From Geomonas paludis (lineage in GTDB: Bacteria; Desulfobacterota; Desulfuromonadia; Geobacterales; Geobacteraceae), in contig NZ_BLXY01000002.1 of NCBI RefSeq assembly GCF_014193585.1, forward strand, positions 744,001 through 808,000: 64,000 nt of DNA. The letters are read 5' to 3'. The position numbers and the translations under genes are program-made. This document shows, in pieces, positions 4,540 to 25,466 of this stretch. Within the stretch, counting starts at the first letter, position 1. Each line of letters starts with the position of its first letter. The notes under the pieces were generated by a model. It did no database searches. It worked only from the letters and a program-made list of their open reading frames with translations, and had not been told where the DNA came from.

Positions 4540-5775
4540 TTAGAGGGATGCGCTCAGCTTGTCGGCCCACGAGAAGGTCTCCAGCTGGGCGGAAAGAAGC
4601 TGGTCCAGCTCCAGCTCGCAGATGTCCAACTGCTCGCTCACGGCAGGGAAATCGGCCTGTTCCAGCAGTTCGGCCAGTACCAGGAGCTCTCCCAGGTCCC
4701 CCTCGTGGTGCAAAAGCGCGCTCTTCACGTTCTCCACGAGGTTCAGCTTCCCCACCAGCTCGGCCATGGCATCCTCGAACAGCACGTCGATGAGCGAGAG
4801 GATGCCGACCATGAAGGCCTGGTCGGCAAGCTCGCCGGCGCCGCGCCCCCGGGAGGCAAGGACCAGGAGCTCCATCAGCTTGCCGCGCGTCGCCGCCATT
4901 TCCAAAAGCGGGCTCTGCACGCCGTTTTGGTCGTTGCTGGCGTACAGCGCCAGGGTGATCCAGCGTTTGAGCTGCTCCATCCCCAGTACGGTCAGGGCAT
5001 GGCGCAGCGTCTTGATGCGCACCCTGAGTCCTATGGCCACGGAGTTGACCAGGCGGAGCAGGTTGTAGGTGAGGCCGGGGTTCTGCTTGAAGGTTTCCTC
5101 GATCTCGGACCATTCCGCGTCGGACATCACCTGCTTCATGAGCTGCATCATGGTGATCTTGCCGATGTCGATCTTGTTCTGCCTGAGCACCACCGGCCGG
5201 GCGAAGTAGTACCCCTGGAACAGGTCGAACCCCAGTTGCGAGCAGAACTTGTAGTGCTCGGCGTTTTCAACCTTCTCCGCCAGCAGCGTCAGCGGCCACT
5301 TCCTGAGGTTTTCCACCATTTCCGGCAGGGACTGGGCAGGCGTCTCCAGCACGTCCACCTTGACGATGTCGACCAGGCGGTAGACCTCGTGGAAACTGGG
5401 GGAATAGATGTGGTCGTCCAGGGCGAGGCTGAAGCCGAGTTTTTTCAGGGAGCGGCAGCGGTCGATCACCTCCTGGTCGGCGACGATGCTTTCCAGAAGC
5501 TCGATGACCACGCGGTCCTTGGGGAGAAGCTCCACCGCGTCGCTCATCAGCACTTCGCGGGTCACGTTGAAGAAGCCCTTGTGCCGCCCGAGGACGTCCT
5601 GGATGCCGAACTGGGTCAGCGCGTTGACGATGACGCTGGCGCTGGCCATCTGCACGTCCAGGAAGCTGGCCGCGTTCAGGCTTTCCGGCGAGCGGAACAG
5701 GAGCTCGAACCCCATGATCTGCTGGGTCCGGTCCAGTATGGGCTGGCGCCCCAGAAAGAACTTTTCTTCAACCAT
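4540..5775 (-). CDS. EAL/HDOD signalling protein (YuxH/CdgJ-like)
   Basis: A 411-residue cytoplasmic protein of the YuxH architecture. An EAL-like domain (residues about 1-200) begins VEEKFFLGRQPILDR and has GFELLFRS where active c-di-GMP phosphodiesterases have the EAL triplet, so catalysis is doubtful. An HDOD domain (about 200-400) follows, with LTYNLLRLVNSVAIG. Family members affect motility and c-di-GMP-linked behaviour as scaffold-like proteins. ATG at 5775 has GAGG five bases upstream. The gene lies just downstream of cheB on the same strand, separated by a family B repeat, which fits a motility or signalling role. The 173 bases between it and kdsB show no feature. Confidence 0.85.
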   Translation of the reverse strand: MVEEKFFLGRQPILDRTQQIMGFELLFRSPESLNAASFLDVQMASASVIVNALTQFGIQDVLGRHKGFFNVTREVLMSDAVELLPKDRVVIELLESIVADQEVIDRCRSLKKLGFSLALDDHIYSPSFHEVYRLVDIVKVDVLETPAQSLPEMVENLRKWPLTLLAEKVENAEHYKFCSQLGFDLFQGYYFARPVVLRQNKIDIGKITMMQLMKQVMSDAEWSEIEETFKQNPGLTYNLLRLVNSVAIGLRVRIKTLRHALTVLGMEQLKRWITLALYASNDQNGVQSPLLEMAATRGKLMELLVLASRGRGAGELADQAFMVGILSLIDVLFEDAMAELVGKLNLVENVKSALLHHEGDLGELLVLAELLEQADFPAVSEQLDICELELDQLLSAQLETFSWADKLSASL

Positions 5776-18613: not shown

Positions 18614-18913
18614 ATGACCTTTCTTCCGGCTCTCAAATCTCTCTACGCAGTGAACGGCTTCGTCGCGGTCCTGTTGTACCTGCCCCAAATAGCGAGGGCA
18701 TGGAGCGACCGCAACCATGCCCTTTCCCTGTCACCGGTCACCTTCGGCGGCTGGTGCATCGGCTCCATCATCACCGCGCTCTACGCCTGCCTCTCGGTGC
18801 ACGATCACATCTTCACCGCGGTAAGCCTCGGCAACACCGTCGGCTCCGGGGCACTTTTCCTCATCGTCATTTCCAGCCGCATCGCCGCGCGCCGGGATTC
18901 CTCCACCTGCTGA
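18614..18913 (+). CDS. PQ-loop / SemiSWEET-like membrane protein
   Basis: A 99-residue protein with three predicted membrane helices (about 8-26, 42-60 and 66-88). The first helix contains YLPQI, the PQ signature of PQ-loop/SemiSWEET transporters, which work as dimers moving small sugars or amino acids. The substrate is unknown. ATG at 18614 has AAGGTG upstream. It converges on the molybdopterin/desulfurase gene, with 46 bases between stops. Confidence 0.7.
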   Translation: MTFLPALKSLYAVNGFVAVLLYLPQIARAWSDRNHALSLSPVTFGGWCIGSIITALYACLSVHDHIFTAVSLGNTVGSGALFLIVISSRIAARRDSSTC

Positions 18914-18959: not shown

Positions 18960-21900
18960 CTAGCGGCAGGGAACGAAGCGCACCGTCTCGGCGGTCTCGC
19001 GCAGCAATTTCCCCAGGCAGGACAGCACGTAGTCGATCTCTTCCTCGCTGTTGGACCACCCCAGCGAAAAACGCACCGAACAGTGCGCCTGCTGCGGCGT
19101 GAGCCCCATGGCGAGGAGCGCGTGCGACGGGTCGGGATTGCCGGACTTGCAGGCCGAGCCGGAGGAAAGCGCGATCCCGTGCCGGTCCAGGTGCAGCACC
19201 AGCGATTCCCCCCGGATGCCGGGGAGCTCCATGTTGAGGGTGTTGGGAAGACGCAGCAGCGCCGGCCCGTTGCGCCGCGCTCCCGGCAACATCTCCAGGA
19301 TCCCCTGTTCCAGCCGGTCCCGCAGTCGGGCCAGCCGTTGCTGCTCTCCGGCGTGCAGCCTCTGCAGGGCGAGTTCCACCGCCTTGGCAAAGCCGACGAT
19401 GCCGGGGACGTTCTCGGTGCCGGCGCGCAGCCCCCGCTCCTGCCCTCCCCCGGTGACCATCGGCTCCAGCCGCACCTCCCGCCCGACGTAGAGCGCCCCC
19501 ACCCCCTTGGGCCCGTGCACCTTGTGCGAGGAGAGCGTCAGCAGGTCCACGCCCAACTGCTCGACGTCGAGCTCCACTTTCCCCAGGGCCTGCACCGCGT
19601 CGCAGTGAAAGAGCGCACCGTGGCGGTGGGCGATGGCCGCCAGTTCCGCCACCGGCTGCAGCGCTCCCGTCTCGTTGTTGGCCAGCATCACGGAAACGAG
19701 GAGGGTGTCGGGACGCAGGGCCCGCTCCAGGGTCTCCGGTCGCAGCACGCCCTCGGCGTCCACCGGCAGCACCGTGAGCTCACAGCCGCTTTTTTCCAGC
19801 GCCCGGCAGGTGTTGAGCACGGCGGGGTGCTCGACGCTGCTGGTGACCAGGTGGCGCCGGTGACCGTCACCGGCCATGACCGCGCCGCGAATGGCGAGGT
19901 TGTCCGCCTCCGAGCCGCCGCCGGTGAAGACGATGCGGCGCGCGGTGCAGTTCAGGGCCTGGGCCACGACGCGCCGGGCGGCGTCGAGGGCGCTGCGGGC
20001 GCGGCTCCCCGCTGCGTGGATGCTGGAGGGGTTGCCGAAGTCGTCGGTGAGCAGGGGGAGCATCGCCTCACGCACCTCCGGGTGCACCGGCGTGGTGGCG
20101 TTGTGGTCCAGGTAGACCAGGCGCTGCGGTGAGGCGGCCGGGAGCGGCCCGGGCTCGACCGCACAGGCGGCGGGCGCCGCCTCGCCGGTACGGGCCGGGA
20201 TCCCCCCCTGCTCCCCGGCCTTGACGATACGGCAGAGCAGGGTCTTGTAGACCGGGAACCCGGAGATGGGGTCGTAGCGGTTGGGGTCGGTGAGCCGGTT
20301 CACGTTGCACTCCTGCCATGCCTGCGGCCCCAGCGGGCCTCCCCCGCCCATGGCGGCGTCGATGCAGCCCGGCGCGATGTCGTCGGTCACCTGGGCCCGG
20401 TACAGCGCCCTCCCCCGCGGCGTCTCCACCCAGGCCCGCTCGCCGTCCGCCACCCCGAGCTCCGCCGCGTCCCGGGCGTTCAGGGTGACCGGCGGCTCGG
20501 GGAGCGGATCGGAGAGATCGGCCACGCCGTGGTGCTGGCTGCGGAAGTCGTGCATGTTGCGCGCCCCGGAGTTGAACACCAGCGGGTAATCGCGCGCCAG
20601 CACCGGATCGGCCAGCGGTCCCTCGCCGGGCTCGGTGTAGACCGGCAGCGGCGGGTAGCCGTGCTCGGCCAGGATCGACGAAGCGATCTCGAACCTGCCG
20701 CTGGGGGTGTTGAAGCCGGGCTGACCGTCGGGGCGCAGCAGCCCCTTCTCCCACTTCTTGTACTGCATCATTACCGTCGGCACCCGCGCCTCCCCTCCCG
20801 CGGCCCGAACCTCCTCGAGGGTGAACCCGGAACCGGCCAGCGCGCAGCGGAGCAGTTCCTCTTCGTCTTGCGGGTAGAGATCGCCGTAGCCCAGGCGCCG
20901 GGCCAGCTCGGCCTGGATGAAGAAGTCGTTTCTCGCCTCCCCCTGCGGCTCGACCAGGCGCTCCCTCACCTTGAACAGCGGGCCGTAGCGCATGTAGGAA
21001 ACGTTCTCGTAGTAGGTGGTGGCGGGGAGGACGATGTCGGCGTAGGCGGAATCGGCTGTGTGGTAGCGGTTGATGGTAACCAGGAAATCAAGCGCCCCCA
21101 GGGTCCGGCGCCACAGTTCCGGATCGGGCCAGGCCGTGATCAGCGAGCCCCCGAGGACGATGAGGGCGCGGATCGGGTACGGTTTCCCCTCCAGGACCGC
21201 CTCGGGGAGTACCGAGGCGTGGGATTCGCCGCGGTAGGAGCTGTACACCGGGAAACGGTCGCGCCCCAGCGCGCGTTTCAGGTCGGGGTTGGCGATGAGT
21301 TGGGAGCGGTTCTGGGGAAAGATGTTCTCCTTCATGCGGAACAAAAGGCCGCCGGGAACGTCCAGCTGCCCCGCCAGCGCGAACAGGGTGAAGACGGCGC
21401 GGATGGCCTGGACGCCGCTGTCGGAGTACTCGAGGCCGGTGTACATGACCGGCACGGCGCCCCGGGCCGCCGCCAACTGCCGCGCCAGTTCCCGGATGGT
21501 AGCGGCGGGGACCCCGGTGATCTCCTGCGCCGCCTCGGGGCGGTAGTGCTGCACCAGGGTGCACAGGTCCTCGAACCCCACCGTCCACTCCCTGGCGAAG
21601 CGCTCGTCGTACAACTCCTCCTCGACCAGAACCTCGATCAGGGAGAGCGCCAGCGCCCCGTCGGTGCCGGGGCGGATGGGAATCCAGAGTGCCTGCGCCT
21701 CGCGCGCCGTCTCGCCGCGGCGCGGGTCTATGGCGACGACCCGGGCGCCGCGCTGCCGGGCCTGGAGGATCTGCCGGTGCGCCAGCGGCGGTGAGTCGGT
21801 GGCGGGGTTGGCGCCCCAGAGGACGATCAGCTCCGCCTGCTCCAGGTCGGTCTCCATGGTGATCAGCATCTCCCCCATGGTGACGTGCGGGGCGATCATG

Positions 21901-22367
21901 GCGAAGGAGACGTAGCAGAGGGCCCCCACGCCGAGCGTGTTGGGGGATCCGAAGGGGAAAAGGACGCTGGAGGCGGAGGAGACCGCGGCGTCGGCGGGCT
22001 GGAACAGGTCGCACAGCGCCATGTCGAAGCTGCCCCGGCCGGTGTAGATCGCCGCCGCTTCCGGACCCCGCTCCTCTTTCAGTTGCTGCAGCCGGGAGAC
22101 GATGGTGTCGAAGGCCTCGTCCCAGGTGATCCGCTCGAAGTCGTAGCCCCCCTTGGCGCCCCGGCGCCGCAGCGGGTAGAGCAGGCGGTCCGGGTCGTGG
22201 ACGATCTGCGGCGAATGACGACCGATCCGGCACAGCATCCCCAGCGGCGTACCCGACTGCGGTTCCACGCCGATCAGCCGCCCCTCCCTCAGGGTCGCCG
22301 TGACGAAGCACCCGGCCGGACAGATACCGCACAAGCCGTCCCTTTTTTCCACCCCCTCCCCGCTCAT
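18960..22367 (-). CDS. Molybdopterin oxidoreductase fused to cysteine desulfurase
   Basis: A 1135-residue fusion. Residues 1-60 carry a [4Fe-4S] motif with Cys13, Cys16, Cys20 and Cys46. Residues about 50-720 are a bis-MGD DMSO-reductase-family domain (ITWDEAFDTI, VLWGANPATDSPP, ending in a cofactor-binding domain with FNSGARNMHDFR). Cys151 in GVGALCYVS after GSPN is the likely Mo ligand. After a linker, residues 752-1135 are a complete NifS/IscS-type desulfurase, with PLP Lys949 in SSHKVHGPKG and persulfide Cys1073 in SSGSACKSG. There is no Tat signal, so it is cytoplasmic. ATG at 22367 overlaps the egtD stop by four bases. Inferred role: oxidative sulfur transfer onto hercynine. Alternative: a self-sulfurating oxidoreductase of another substrate. 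Confidence 0.9.
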   Translation of the reverse strand: MSGEGVEKRDGLCGICPAGCFVTATLREGRLIGVEPQSGTPLGMLCRIGRHSPQIVHDPDRLLYPLRRRGAKGGYDFERITWDEAFDTIVSRLQQLKEERGPEAAAIYTGRGSFDMALCDLFQPADAAVSSASSVLFPFGSPNTLGVGALCYVSFAMIAPHVTMGEMLITMETDLEQAELIVLWGANPATDSPPLAHRQILQARQRGARVVAIDPRRGETAREAQALWIPIRPGTDGALALSLIEVLVEEELYDERFAREWTVGFEDLCTLVQHYRPEAAQEITGVPAATIRELARQLAAARGAVPVMYTGLEYSDSGVQAIRAVFTLFALAGQLDVPGGLLFRMKENIFPQNRSQLIANPDLKRALGRDRFPVYSSYRGESHASVLPEAVLEGKPYPIRALIVLGGSLITAWPDPELWRRTLGALDFLVTINRYHTADSAYADIVLPATTYYENVSYMRYGPLFKVRERLVEPQGEARNDFFIQAELARRLGYGDLYPQDEEELLRCALAGSGFTLEEVRAAGGEARVPTVMMQYKKWEKGLLRPDGQPGFNTPSGRFEIASSILAEHGYPPLPVYTEPGEGPLADPVLARDYPLVFNSGARNMHDFRSQHHGVADLSDPLPEPPVTLNARDAAELGVADGERAWVETPRGRALYRAQVTDDIAPGCIDAAMGGGGPLGPQAWQECNVNRLTDPNRYDPISGFPVYKTLLCRIVKAGEQGGIPARTGEAAPAACAVEPGPLPAASPQRLVYLDHNATTPVHPEVREAMLPLLTDDFGNPSSIHAAGSRARSALDAARRVVAQALNCTARRIVFTGGGSEADNLAIRGAVMAGDGHRRHLVTSSVEHPAVLNTCRALEKSGCELTVLPVDAEGVLRPETLERALRPDTLLVSVMLANNETGALQPVAELAAIAHRHGALFHCDAVQALGKVELDVEQLGVDLLTLSSHKVHGPKGVGALYVGREVRLEPMVTGGGQERGLRAGTENVPGIVGFAKAVELALQRLHAGEQQRLARLRDRLEQGILEMLPGARRNGPALLRLPNTLNMELPGIRGESLVLHLDRHGIALSSGSACKSGNPDPSHALLAMGLTPQQAHCSVRFSLGWSNSEEEIDYVLSCLGKLLRETAETVRFVPCR

Positions 22368-23437
22368 AACGGCCTCTTCCCGGCCCGGCGCGGCGAGTAC
22401 AGGGGACGGCGGCGCAGCAGCAGCAGTGCGAACCAGCGCTGAGAGTCGGTGAAGACCCTTTCCGCGGCAAAGCCGCAGCCCTCCAGTTCCGGGATCACCC
22501 GCTCCATGCGGAACTTCCGGCTGATCTCGGTCCGCACCAGATCCCCCTGCCCCATGGTGATCACCCGCCCCGGCGGAGTCAGCCGGAAGCTCTGCTCCCG
22601 GGTGAAGCGCGCCGAGATTTCGACCAGTTCCTGGTCCTGGCGGTACCAGGCCGCATGCTCGATGGCGTCCAGATCGATGCCGGCGTCCAGTTCCCTGTTC
22701 ATGCGGACGAAGAGGTTGCGGGTGAAACGCGCGGTGACCCCGGCCTGGTCGTTGTACGCCGCCTCCAGGATGGAGCGCTCCTTGACCAGGTCCACCCCGA
22801 GCAGGAAGAAGTCCCCCGGGCGCAGCGCCGCAGCCAGGGTGCGGACAAAGGCAAGCATCTCCGGGGGTGCAAAGTTGCCGATGCTGCTCCCCAAAAAGGC
22901 GACCAGCACCGGCGAGAGTTGCGCCAGCAGGGGGAAAACCTCCCGGTACTGGCACTGGATACCCACCATCTCCACCGCCGGGAACCTGGACCTGATACCG
23001 GCGCAGGCGGCGGAAAGCGCGGCAGAGCTGACATCGACGGGATAGTAGCGGGTGGGACCGCCGCGCTCCAGCCAGGCCTTCAACAGGTGATCCGTCTTCA
23101 GCGAACTTCCCGATCCCAGTTCCAGGATCCGCGTCGGCCCGGTCAACTCCCGTATCTCGGCGGCATGGGCGGCCAGGATCGCGGCTTCGGTGCGGGTGAG
23201 GTAGTATTCGGGCTGCCGGGTGATCTCTTCGAAGAGGGCGCTTCCTTGCGCGTCGTAGAGGAAGCGGCTTTCCAAGGTGCGTGGGTCGGCGTACAAGCCG
23301 CGCACGCAGGAGCGCGCGAAATCCACGATGGGATCGAGACCGGGCGAGGACTGCACGATGGTGGGGGTGCGCCTCAGGCAGGCGTCGCGCAAGTTACGGC
23401 AGAGGTGCGGTTCGGGCGAGGCGAAAAAAGCATCCAT
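22364..23437 (-). CDS. egtD: L-histidine N-alpha-methyltransferase (hercynine-forming)
   Basis: Transfers three methyl groups from SAM to the histidine amino group. The 357-residue protein has the EgtD family motifs: YYLTRTEAAIL at 78-88, the SAM loop ELGSGSSLKT at 106-115, FLGSSIGNF with Asn188, YNDQAGVTARF at 228-238, and RTEISRKF with Glu304 and Ser306, which in characterised EgtD bind the histidine imidazole. All key positions are present. ATG at 23437 has AGGAGGGAACA before it. It is first in an operon with the Mo/desulfurase fusion; no egtB, egtC, egtE or rhodanese (eanB) gene is nearby. Confidence 0.92.
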   Translation of the reverse strand: MDAFFASPEPHLCRNLRDACLRRTPTIVQSSPGLDPIVDFARSCVRGLYADPRTLESRFLYDAQGSALFEEITRQPEYYLTRTEAAILAAHAAEIRELTGPTRILELGSGSSLKTDHLLKAWLERGGPTRYYPVDVSSAALSAACAGIRSRFPAVEMVGIQCQYREVFPLLAQLSPVLVAFLGSSIGNFAPPEMLAFVRTLAAALRPGDFFLLGVDLVKERSILEAAYNDQAGVTARFTRNLFVRMNRELDAGIDLDAIEHAAWYRQDQELVEISARFTREQSFRLTPPGRVITMGQGDLVRTEISRKFRMERVIPELEGCGFAAERVFTDSQRWFALLLLRRRPLYSPRRAGKRPL

Positions 23438-23479
23438 TGTTCCCTCCTGGCTCATTGCCACTTGCAAAAAGATCAAAAG

Positions 23480-23507
23480 ATTATAAATAATTAATCTTCT
23501 GCGTCAA
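23480..23507 (-). promoter_or_regulatory. Sigma-70 promoter of the egtD operon
   Basis: On the minus strand TTGACG (23502-23507) and TATAAT (23480-23485) are separated by 16 bases in an AT-rich patch. The start codon is about 40 bases past the -10 box. This is one of the best vegetative promoters in the window. Confidence 0.65.
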
Positions 23508-23763: not shown

Positions 23764-24273
23764 ATGACAGGCGAAGCGACTATGAGAAAGGAACTGCTGG
23801 CACTGCTTGAGGGGGGCAATGCCCACTTCGACTTCAAAGAGGTGCTGGCGGACCTGCCGCCGGAATCCATCAACGCCAAGGCAGCCAACACGCCCTACTC
23901 GCTGTGGCATTTCGTGGAACATCTGCGCATCGCCCAGTGGGACATCCTCGAGTTCATCAGGACCCCCGCTCACCGCTCCCCCGAATATCCCGCCGGCTAC
24001 CGTCCGGCACCGGACCGGACCACGGACCAGGCCGGCTGGCGCGAGAGCTGCGACCGTTTTCTGGCCGACCTGGAAGCGCTCAAGGACCTGGTCCGGGACG
24101 AAACGCTCGACCTGATGGCCCCGCTGCCGCACGCGCCGGGGTACAGCATCTTCAGAGAGGTGCTGCTCGCAGCGGACCACAACGCCTACCACATCGGGGA
24201 GATCGCCATCCTGCGCCAGGTCATGGGGCTGTGGCCCGCTCACAACCGCTACCTCACCGGAAGCGCCGACTGA
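23764..24273 (+). CDS. DinB-superfamily protein
   Basis: A 169-residue four-helix-bundle protein of the DinB/YfiT type. Conserved metal-binding His candidates lie in LWHFVEHLR near residue 47 and ADHNAYHIGEIAILRQ near residue 140, giving the three-His site of the superfamily. Members include thiol-S-transferases (bacillithiol, mycothiol) and the N-terminal domains of EgtB-like enzymes. ATG at 23764 has GGGAGGAGG upstream. It is divergent from egtD and followed after 14 bases by an unknown gene. A low-molecular-weight-thiol role is attractive in this setting but is inference. Confidence 0.82.
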   Translation: MTGEATMRKELLALLEGGNAHFDFKEVLADLPPESINAKAANTPYSLWHFVEHLRIAQWDILEFIRTPAHRSPEYPAGYRPAPDRTTDQAGWRESCDRFLADLEALKDLVRDETLDLMAPLPHAPGYSIFREVLLAADHNAYHIGEIAILRQVMGLWPAHNRYLTGSAD

Positions 24274-24287
24274 TCAAGGGAGCCGAC

Positions 24288-25466
24288 ATGGACAAAGAGG
24301 AAAGCGTCACGTTGGCCGGAGAGATCATGCTCGATTTCGCGGCCCAGACCGGCGTATCCAGGGAGGACAAGCCGCAGCGCCGTTATCTCTGGACCGACGC
24401 CTTCGCGGTGTGCAACTTCCTGGAGCTTTACCATCACAGCCAGGACGAGAAGTGGCTGCTGCTGGCACTGCGGCTGGTGGACCAGGTACACCAGACTCTG
24501 GGGCGGCACCGGCCGGACACGGCGAAAAGCGGGTGGCTCAGCGGGCTCAGCGAAGAGGCAGGTGAGCGGCATCCCACCCGGGGCGGACTGCGCATCGGCA
24601 AAAAGATGGAAGAGCGCGCACCGGACGAGCCGATGGACGAGCGCCTGGAATGGGAGCGGGATGGACAATACTACCACTACCTGACCAAGTGGATGCGGGC
24701 GTTGACCCGCACCAGCCGGGTCACCGGGGAGGCCTGCTACCTGCGCTGGGGCATGGAACTCGCGCAGACTGCGCACCGGGCGTTCCGCTTCAGCGACGGG
24801 CCCGACGGGGCCTTGGGGCTGCATTGGAAGATGAGCGGCGACCTCAGGCGCTCCCTGGTCCCCTCAGTGGGCCAGCACGACCCGCTGGACGGCCTGGTGA
24901 CCTGTTGCGAGATGGTCTGCGCCGCCCGCCATTTCCCCGACCAGGAGCTGCCGGAGCTGGGACGGGAGATCGGGGAGTTGACGCAGATGTGCCGCAGCCG
25001 GGACTTCAGCACCAGCGACAGCCTCGGCATCGGCGGCATCCTGGTCGACGCCTGCCGGACCGGCGAACTCATCATCAACGAGGCCTTCCAGGACCTCGCC
25101 CTGTTCCAGTGCATGGTAAACGACGCTCTGTTGTCGCTGGAAGACCTGGGCCCAGGCTTCATCGATCAGCCCGCCAAGTACCGGTTGGCGTTTCGCGAGC
25201 TCGGCCTATCCATCGGCCTGAAGGGAACCGCGCGACTGGCCCGGCTCTTCGAGGAATATCCGGACGTGCGCGGGGGCGAACTGGCAGAGTGGCTGCAGCC
25301 CCGGCTCGAAGCAATGCTGTGGTTTCAAAAGATGTCGGGAAAAATTGAGCGTTTCTGGATCGAGGAAAAGAGAAAGGGGACCGAGCACTGGAGGTCCCAC
25401 GGCGACATCAACATGGTCATGCTCGCCACGAGCCTCGCCCCGGGGCAGTTTCTCAGGGCCAACTGA
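24288..25466 (+). CDS. Conserved helical protein of unknown function
   Basis: A 392-residue cytoplasmic protein I do not recognise. It has no signal peptide and reads as paired helices throughout, rich in Trp, His and Leu, with aromatic patches such as WTDAFAVCNFLELYHH (about 33-48) and GQYYHYLTKWMRALTR (about 122-137). The look is that of an alpha/alpha-toroid (six-hairpin) fold as in epimerases, glycosidases or lanthionine cyclases, but no catalytic motif is evident. ATG at 24288 has AAGGGAG upstream. It follows the DinB gene by 14 bases and is probably co-transcribed. Confidence 0.7.
   Translation: MDKEESVTLAGEIMLDFAAQTGVSREDKPQRRYLWTDAFAVCNFLELYHHSQDEKWLLLALRLVDQVHQTLGRHRPDTAKSGWLSGLSEEAGERHPTRGGLRIGKKMEERAPDEPMDERLEWERDGQYYHYLTKWMRALTRTSRVTGEACYLRWGMELAQTAHRAFRFSDGPDGALGLHWKMSGDLRRSLVPSVGQHDPLDGLVTCCEMVCAARHFPDQELPELGREIGELTQMCRSRDFSTSDSLGIGGILVDACRTGELIINEAFQDLALFQCMVNDALLSLEDLGPGFIDQPAKYRLAFRELGLSIGLKGTARLARLFEEYPDVRGGELAEWLQPRLEAMLWFQKMSGKIERFWIEEKRKGTEHWRSHGDINMVMLATSLAPGQFLRAN

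Follow-up and report, generated by a model that had tools for sequence, protein, structure and literature searches.

The locus described here lies in a 64,000-nucleotide stretch of DNA (the window) from the 5.1-Mb genome of Geomonas paludis, a member of the genus Geomonas. Two genes on the minus strand are arranged as an operon. The upstream gene, egtD (22364-23437), encodes a putative L-histidine N-alpha-methyltransferase of 357 amino acids with an ATG at 23437, and its 3′ end overlaps by 4 bases (ATGA) the start (ATG at 22367) of a fusion gene, mes (18960-22367), that encodes 1,135 amino acids. A 1,331-amino-acid open reading frame with a GTG start, present in a mechanical list of open reading frames, was rejected as a mere upstream extension across egtD. 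A promoter-like sequence, TTGACG-16-TATAAT (23507-23480, minus strand), matches 11 of 12 consensus positions upstream of egtD, and AGGAGG is found 5′ of the egtD start at about 23449-23444. Promoter-like sites in the region number 3, compared to 0.3 expected from shuffled sequence. Divergent from egtD, a plus-strand gene (23764-24273) encodes a 169-amino-acid protein of the DinB/STL superfamily (PF12867), referred to below as DinB. Two further plus-strand genes flank this group. One (18614-18913) encodes a 99-amino-acid PQ-loop (SemiSWEET-like) protein, is convergent with mes, and also adjoins mes at two other loci (L017 and L050); the other (24288-25466) encodes a protein of ~390 amino acids with no Pfam or NCBIfam match and stays beside the locus across the genus, even where mes and dinB are lost.

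The EgtD protein scored 308.5 bits on the TIGR03438 equivalog model (cutoff, 290.9) and matched Pfam Methyltransf_33 (PF10017; 4e-95). Its imidazole-binding residues E304 and S306 align with the TEVS motif of Mycobacterium smegmatis EgtD (4UY5). The original prediction of a complete EgtD, with Glu304 and Ser306 at exactly those positions, was therefore borne out. The same is true of the 4-base overlap with a single protein combining a molybdopterin module and a complete NifS-type desulfurase, as coordinates and Pfam domains agree: Molybdopterin (residues 61-490), Molydop_binding (603-709), and a full-length Aminotran_5 (751-1114) lie in one unbroken reading frame. Because the frame is continuous and full-length homologues with 54 to 92% identity are found across many phyla, the fusion is neither a chance nor an assembly join. 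The closest of these include the proteins of G. anaerohicana (92% identical) and G. propionica (91%).

Residues 1-718 of the fusion (20214-22367, minus strand) form a predicted [4Fe-4S] and bis-MGD module with cysteines C13, C16, C20, and C46 and the putative metal ligand C151 (codon at 21915-21917). The best solved relative of this Mo/W module is acetylene hydratase (2E7Z; 1.5e-72), with Cys151 aligned with a Cys of the hydratase. Residues 748-1135 (18960-20126, minus strand) were assigned as a NifS/IscS-type cysteine desulfurase by TIGR03402 (1.1e-146), PF00266 (2e-80), and conservation, and the nearest solved relatives of this module are IscS/NifS enzymes. It contains the PLP lysine K949 (codon at 19521-19523), the persulfide cysteines C1073 (19149-19151) and C1134 (18966-18968, the next-to-last residue), and C1096 (19080-19082), all on the minus strand.

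A protein of this architecture, the metallopterin-dependent ergothioneine synthase (MES), was described in 2022 from Caldithrix abyssi (PMC9516567). CaMES comprises modules 1-718 and 747-1136, with Fe-S cysteines 14, 17, 21, and 48, metal-ligand Cys153, PLP Lys952, and further cysteines 1074, 1097, and 1135; almost no product was made when Cys153, Lys952, Cys1074, or Cys1135 was altered, and production fell by only half when Cys1097 was (PMC9516567). Four MES homologues make ergothioneine, cysteine is the sulfur source, and sulfur transfer within MES is intramolecular (PMC9516567). C13, C16, C20, C46, C151, K949, C1073, C1096, and C1134 of the Geomonas paludis protein are the counterparts of all nine published CaMES residues. 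A Calditrichota homologue of 1,136 amino acids, 63% identical to the Geomonas paludis protein, carries each of the nine at a position number identical to that published for CaMES. Conservation was assessed in 60 distinct homologues, from loci with records in Geobacterales, Desulfobulbaceae, Gemmatimonadota, Actinomycetes, Nitrospirota, Chloroflexi, Planctomycetes, Calditrichota, and an archaeon. Neither K949 nor C712 varies among them. C13, C16, C20, C46, C151, C1073, and C1134 are each present in 59 of the 60, most exceptions being alignment gaps, and C1096 is present in 58.

Taken together, the sequence features indicate, with a probability of about 0.93, that egtD and mes form an operon for O2-independent ergothioneine synthesis via a C151/K949/C1073/C1134 sulfur relay. 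Such a pathway, consisting of EgtD plus a fused Mo protein and desulfurase, had been predicted for this locus; it gives the best fit to the sequence, homologues of the same architecture have been shown to be active (PMC9516567), and the Geomonas paludis MES is likely to have the same activity. The prediction also allowed that a synthase of ergothioneine that depends on molybdenum might already be in the literature. This is the case (PMC9516567), so the operon is a further member of an enzyme family known since 2022 and the pathway is not new. The genus Geomonas is not named in the text of the MES paper (PMC9516567).

The steps of the pathway can be proposed by analogy with CaMES, the residues required being present in the Geomonas paludis protein. 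EgtD would trimethylate histidine to hercynine (TMH). The C-terminal PLP desulfurase of MES, using K949, would take sulfur from cysteine and pass it as a persulfide on C1073 to the C-terminal C1134, from which it would be delivered to the bis-MGD Mo/W center bound by C151. Hercynine would then attack the metal-sulfido group through its imidazole, resulting in sulfurization at C2, and the reduced metal would be recharged by the next persulfide. In the published proposal, the target of the imidazole is an electrophilic sulfido ligand, Mo(VI)=S, which the persulfide relay resulfurizes (PMC9516567). The original idea that the desulfurase domain supplies persulfide sulfur for an O2-free thione thus stands, but its separate oxidation of C2 by the Mo domain is replaced by attack on Mo(VI)=S.

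The distribution of the genes was examined in 147 relatives. The MES fusion is present in 16, all of which carry EgtD (16/16), while EgtD occurs in 2 of the 131 relatives without MES (G008 and G018); two more relatives give only weak EgtD-like matches. In G018, egtD is at a contig end and no MES was detected. In G008, mes is a frameshifted N-terminal remnant beside egtD. EgtD was also found elsewhere in the genome in 12 of 13 additional MES genomes where none was seen next to MES; in one genome (G193, for which no completeness figure is given), MES is present and egtD was not detected. Full-length fusions are thus nearly always accompanied by EgtD, the reverse of a family found mostly without it. 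The prediction that EgtB is not nearby also holds: no EgtB above the cutoff was found in the whole Geomonas paludis genome, the one in which its absence was checked. The sole match there (181 bits) was rejected as EgtB because it contains the two equivalog domains of OvoA and is therefore that enzyme. No rhodanese domain was found among the scanned neighbors of the locus.

Several other features of MES loci were recorded. The G008 locus (L120), from a sister species and with an intact egtD between mes and dinB fragments, looks like a natural loss of the sulfurization step, and hercynine may be the end product in this genome. In Geotalea toluenoxydans (G043; L050 and L101/L151), mes and dinB both appear frameshifted, through either sequencing errors or joint decay. 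Flavoprotein disulfide reductases occur at five loci outside the order and were considered as an MES partner, but the three examined (L030:11426-12832, 44 bp downstream of mes; L052:2945-4312; and L042:1178-2551) belong to different Lpd/MerA-like subfamilies. A small DUF427 (NTP_transf_9) gene lies near MES at three non-Geobacterales loci (L039, L044, and L049, in the last at 4785-5066).

Class V desulfurases can process selenocysteine, and the original prediction allowed for selenium as the donor atom. The operon would then make selenoneine, with the desulfurase module acting on selenocysteine and selenium entering hercynine. The module does show a weaker similarity to selenocysteine lyase models, but NifS/IscS models score far above SclA or selenocysteine lyase, the SenA equivalog matches only the OvoA-type protein (166.8, compared to a cutoff of 420), and the published MES takes its sulfur from cysteine (PMC9516567). 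We found no support for selenium and consider this reading extremely improbable. Equally little credence can be given to a role for the O2-dependent OvoA on another contig (G000:C1, 249.7-251.9 kb) as the source of thiol-histidine, with the fusion being a molybdenum cofactor sulfurase or redundant. This OvoA (L086:1408-3513) is complete, combining 5-histidylcysteine sulfoxide synthase with a methyltransferase domain and exceeding the cutoffs of both TIGR04344 and TIGR04345. However, the product of OvoA is the C5-thiolated ovothiol, and the enzyme depends on O2. OvoA is also above the cutoff in 97 of the 147 relatives in this largely anaerobic order, whereas MES is much less frequent, and EgtD tracks MES instead.

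A different substrate for the fusion was also weighed, in which it would act on another heterocycle while the hercynine made by EgtD serves a different purpose. Relatives of the Mo module that lack a desulfurase exist (45 to 48% identity, ~740 amino acids), and two of their host genomes (G048 and G051) have no EgtD; the MES Mo-module family is therefore not confined to ergothioneine. However, the near-constant company of EgtD and the ergothioneine made by four published MES homologues (PMC9516567) make this reading highly unlikely for the full-length fusion. Matches consisting of the Mo module only, in G048, G051, and nine genomes of the phylum (G256, G259, G352, G402, G410, G425, G467, G584, and G599), were not counted as MES. 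Two such modules lie at L102 and L103. The latter (L103:1501-3648, minus strand) keeps the metal-ligand Cys and the C712 equivalent and adjoins genes for a DUF1638 protein and an MtaA/CmuA-like methyltransferase. The desulfurase-less module is possibly a sulfur-transferring Mo enzyme for another substrate.

With ergothioneine synthesis as the preferred reading of the operon, the divergent dinB gene becomes of interest. DinB matched PF12867 (DinB_2) at 1.4e-7 (32.4 bits; cutoff, 24.8), and the superfamily's metal site of three histidines is conserved in it as H53, H139, and H143. Foldseek searches with its AlphaFold model (pLDDT, 86) matched DinB/YfiT proteins, BstA, and mycothiol S-transferase with probabilities near 1, weak E values (0.002 to 0.05), and TM scores of 0.5 to 0.64. 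A DinB orthologue is present in 14 of the 16 MES relatives, frameshifted in one of the 14, and intact in none of the 131 relatives without MES, two of which have fragments (Fisher P of about 1e-17 over 147 relatives, uncorrected for shared ancestry). Among 395 genomes drawn from across the phylum, the orthologue was found in 9 of 14 genomes with full-length MES, spanning six families, and in none of the other 381. Outside the order, orthologues or close relatives (36 to 69% identity) were found in 8 of 43 MES genomes tested, including a Desulfomonile metagenome-assembled genome where DinB (69% identity) adjoins MES and EgtD is on a different contig. Within the Geobacterales, DinB co-occurs with MES in G067 and G093 though the two are unlinked. 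Decay is likewise shared: in G008, mes and dinB are both in fragments on either side of an intact egtD, and in G006 and G017, dinB is decayed and mes is absent. The dinB remnants in the latter two genomes (L152/L154 and L153, respectively) adjoin an intact gene of 386 amino acids with no family assigned.

Members of the DinB superfamily include bacillithiol, mycothiol, and glutathione S-transferases (PMC4360819; PMC10950700). Given its co-occurrence and co-decay with MES, its three-histidine site, its fold, and the thiol S-transferases in its superfamily, we infer, with less confidence than for MES, that DinB is a candidate ergothioneine-dependent S-transferase, with ergothioneine as the thiol cosubstrate. 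Against this, the evidence for the link is purely genomic, and the apparent co-loss could be inflated by physical clustering. In addition, DinB is missing from two MES genomes of the order, and most MES genomes beyond the Geobacterales have no close orthologue. The stronger proposal, that DinB is a dedicated ergothioneine S-transferase and that strict anaerobes thus use ergothioneine as a thiol cofactor and not just as an antioxidant, is tentative and somewhat less probable than its negation. DinB is mentioned neither in the MES paper (PMC9516567) nor in a later review, and its link with MES was not found in the literature searched. The MES paper leaves the role of ergothioneine without oxygen as a question (PMC9516567), for which DinB offers a testable candidate user of the product. 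The known molybdopterin-dependent, O2-independent pathway is now placed in cultured iron reducers of the Geobacterales, Geomonas among them, which can be grown for experiments.

Comparison with known systems places both proteins. DinB shares the DinB_2 domain, the three-histidine site, and the predicted fold with BstA, mycothiol S-transferase, and mycothiol-dependent maleylpyruvate isomerase, but it is only about 10 to 18% identical to solved BstA/MST-type members and is tied to MES, not to a bacillithiol or mycothiol pathway. Acetylene hydratase (2E7Z) aligns with MES at the Cys metal ligand and the N-terminal 4Fe-4S cysteines, but it has no desulfurase and catalyzes a different reaction. The sulfoxide synthases EgtB/Egt1 and OvoA, the last also encoded by Geomonas paludis, likewise give histidine-thiol products but are unrelated non-heme iron enzymes requiring O2. 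EanB, a rhodanese-type enzyme, also sulfurizes hercynine without O2 after EgtD; MES, in contrast, has no rhodanese domain and relies on a Mo/W cofactor, with cysteine as the sulfur source through a PLP desulfurase. The closest counterpart is the Caldithrix abyssi MES, which has the same two-module fusion with a length within one residue, all essential residues, an EgtD partner, and an anaerobic host (PMC9516567). The system described here differs from it in its lineage (Geobacterales, Geomonas), in the 4-bp overlap of egtD and mes, and in the DinB/STL gene alongside.
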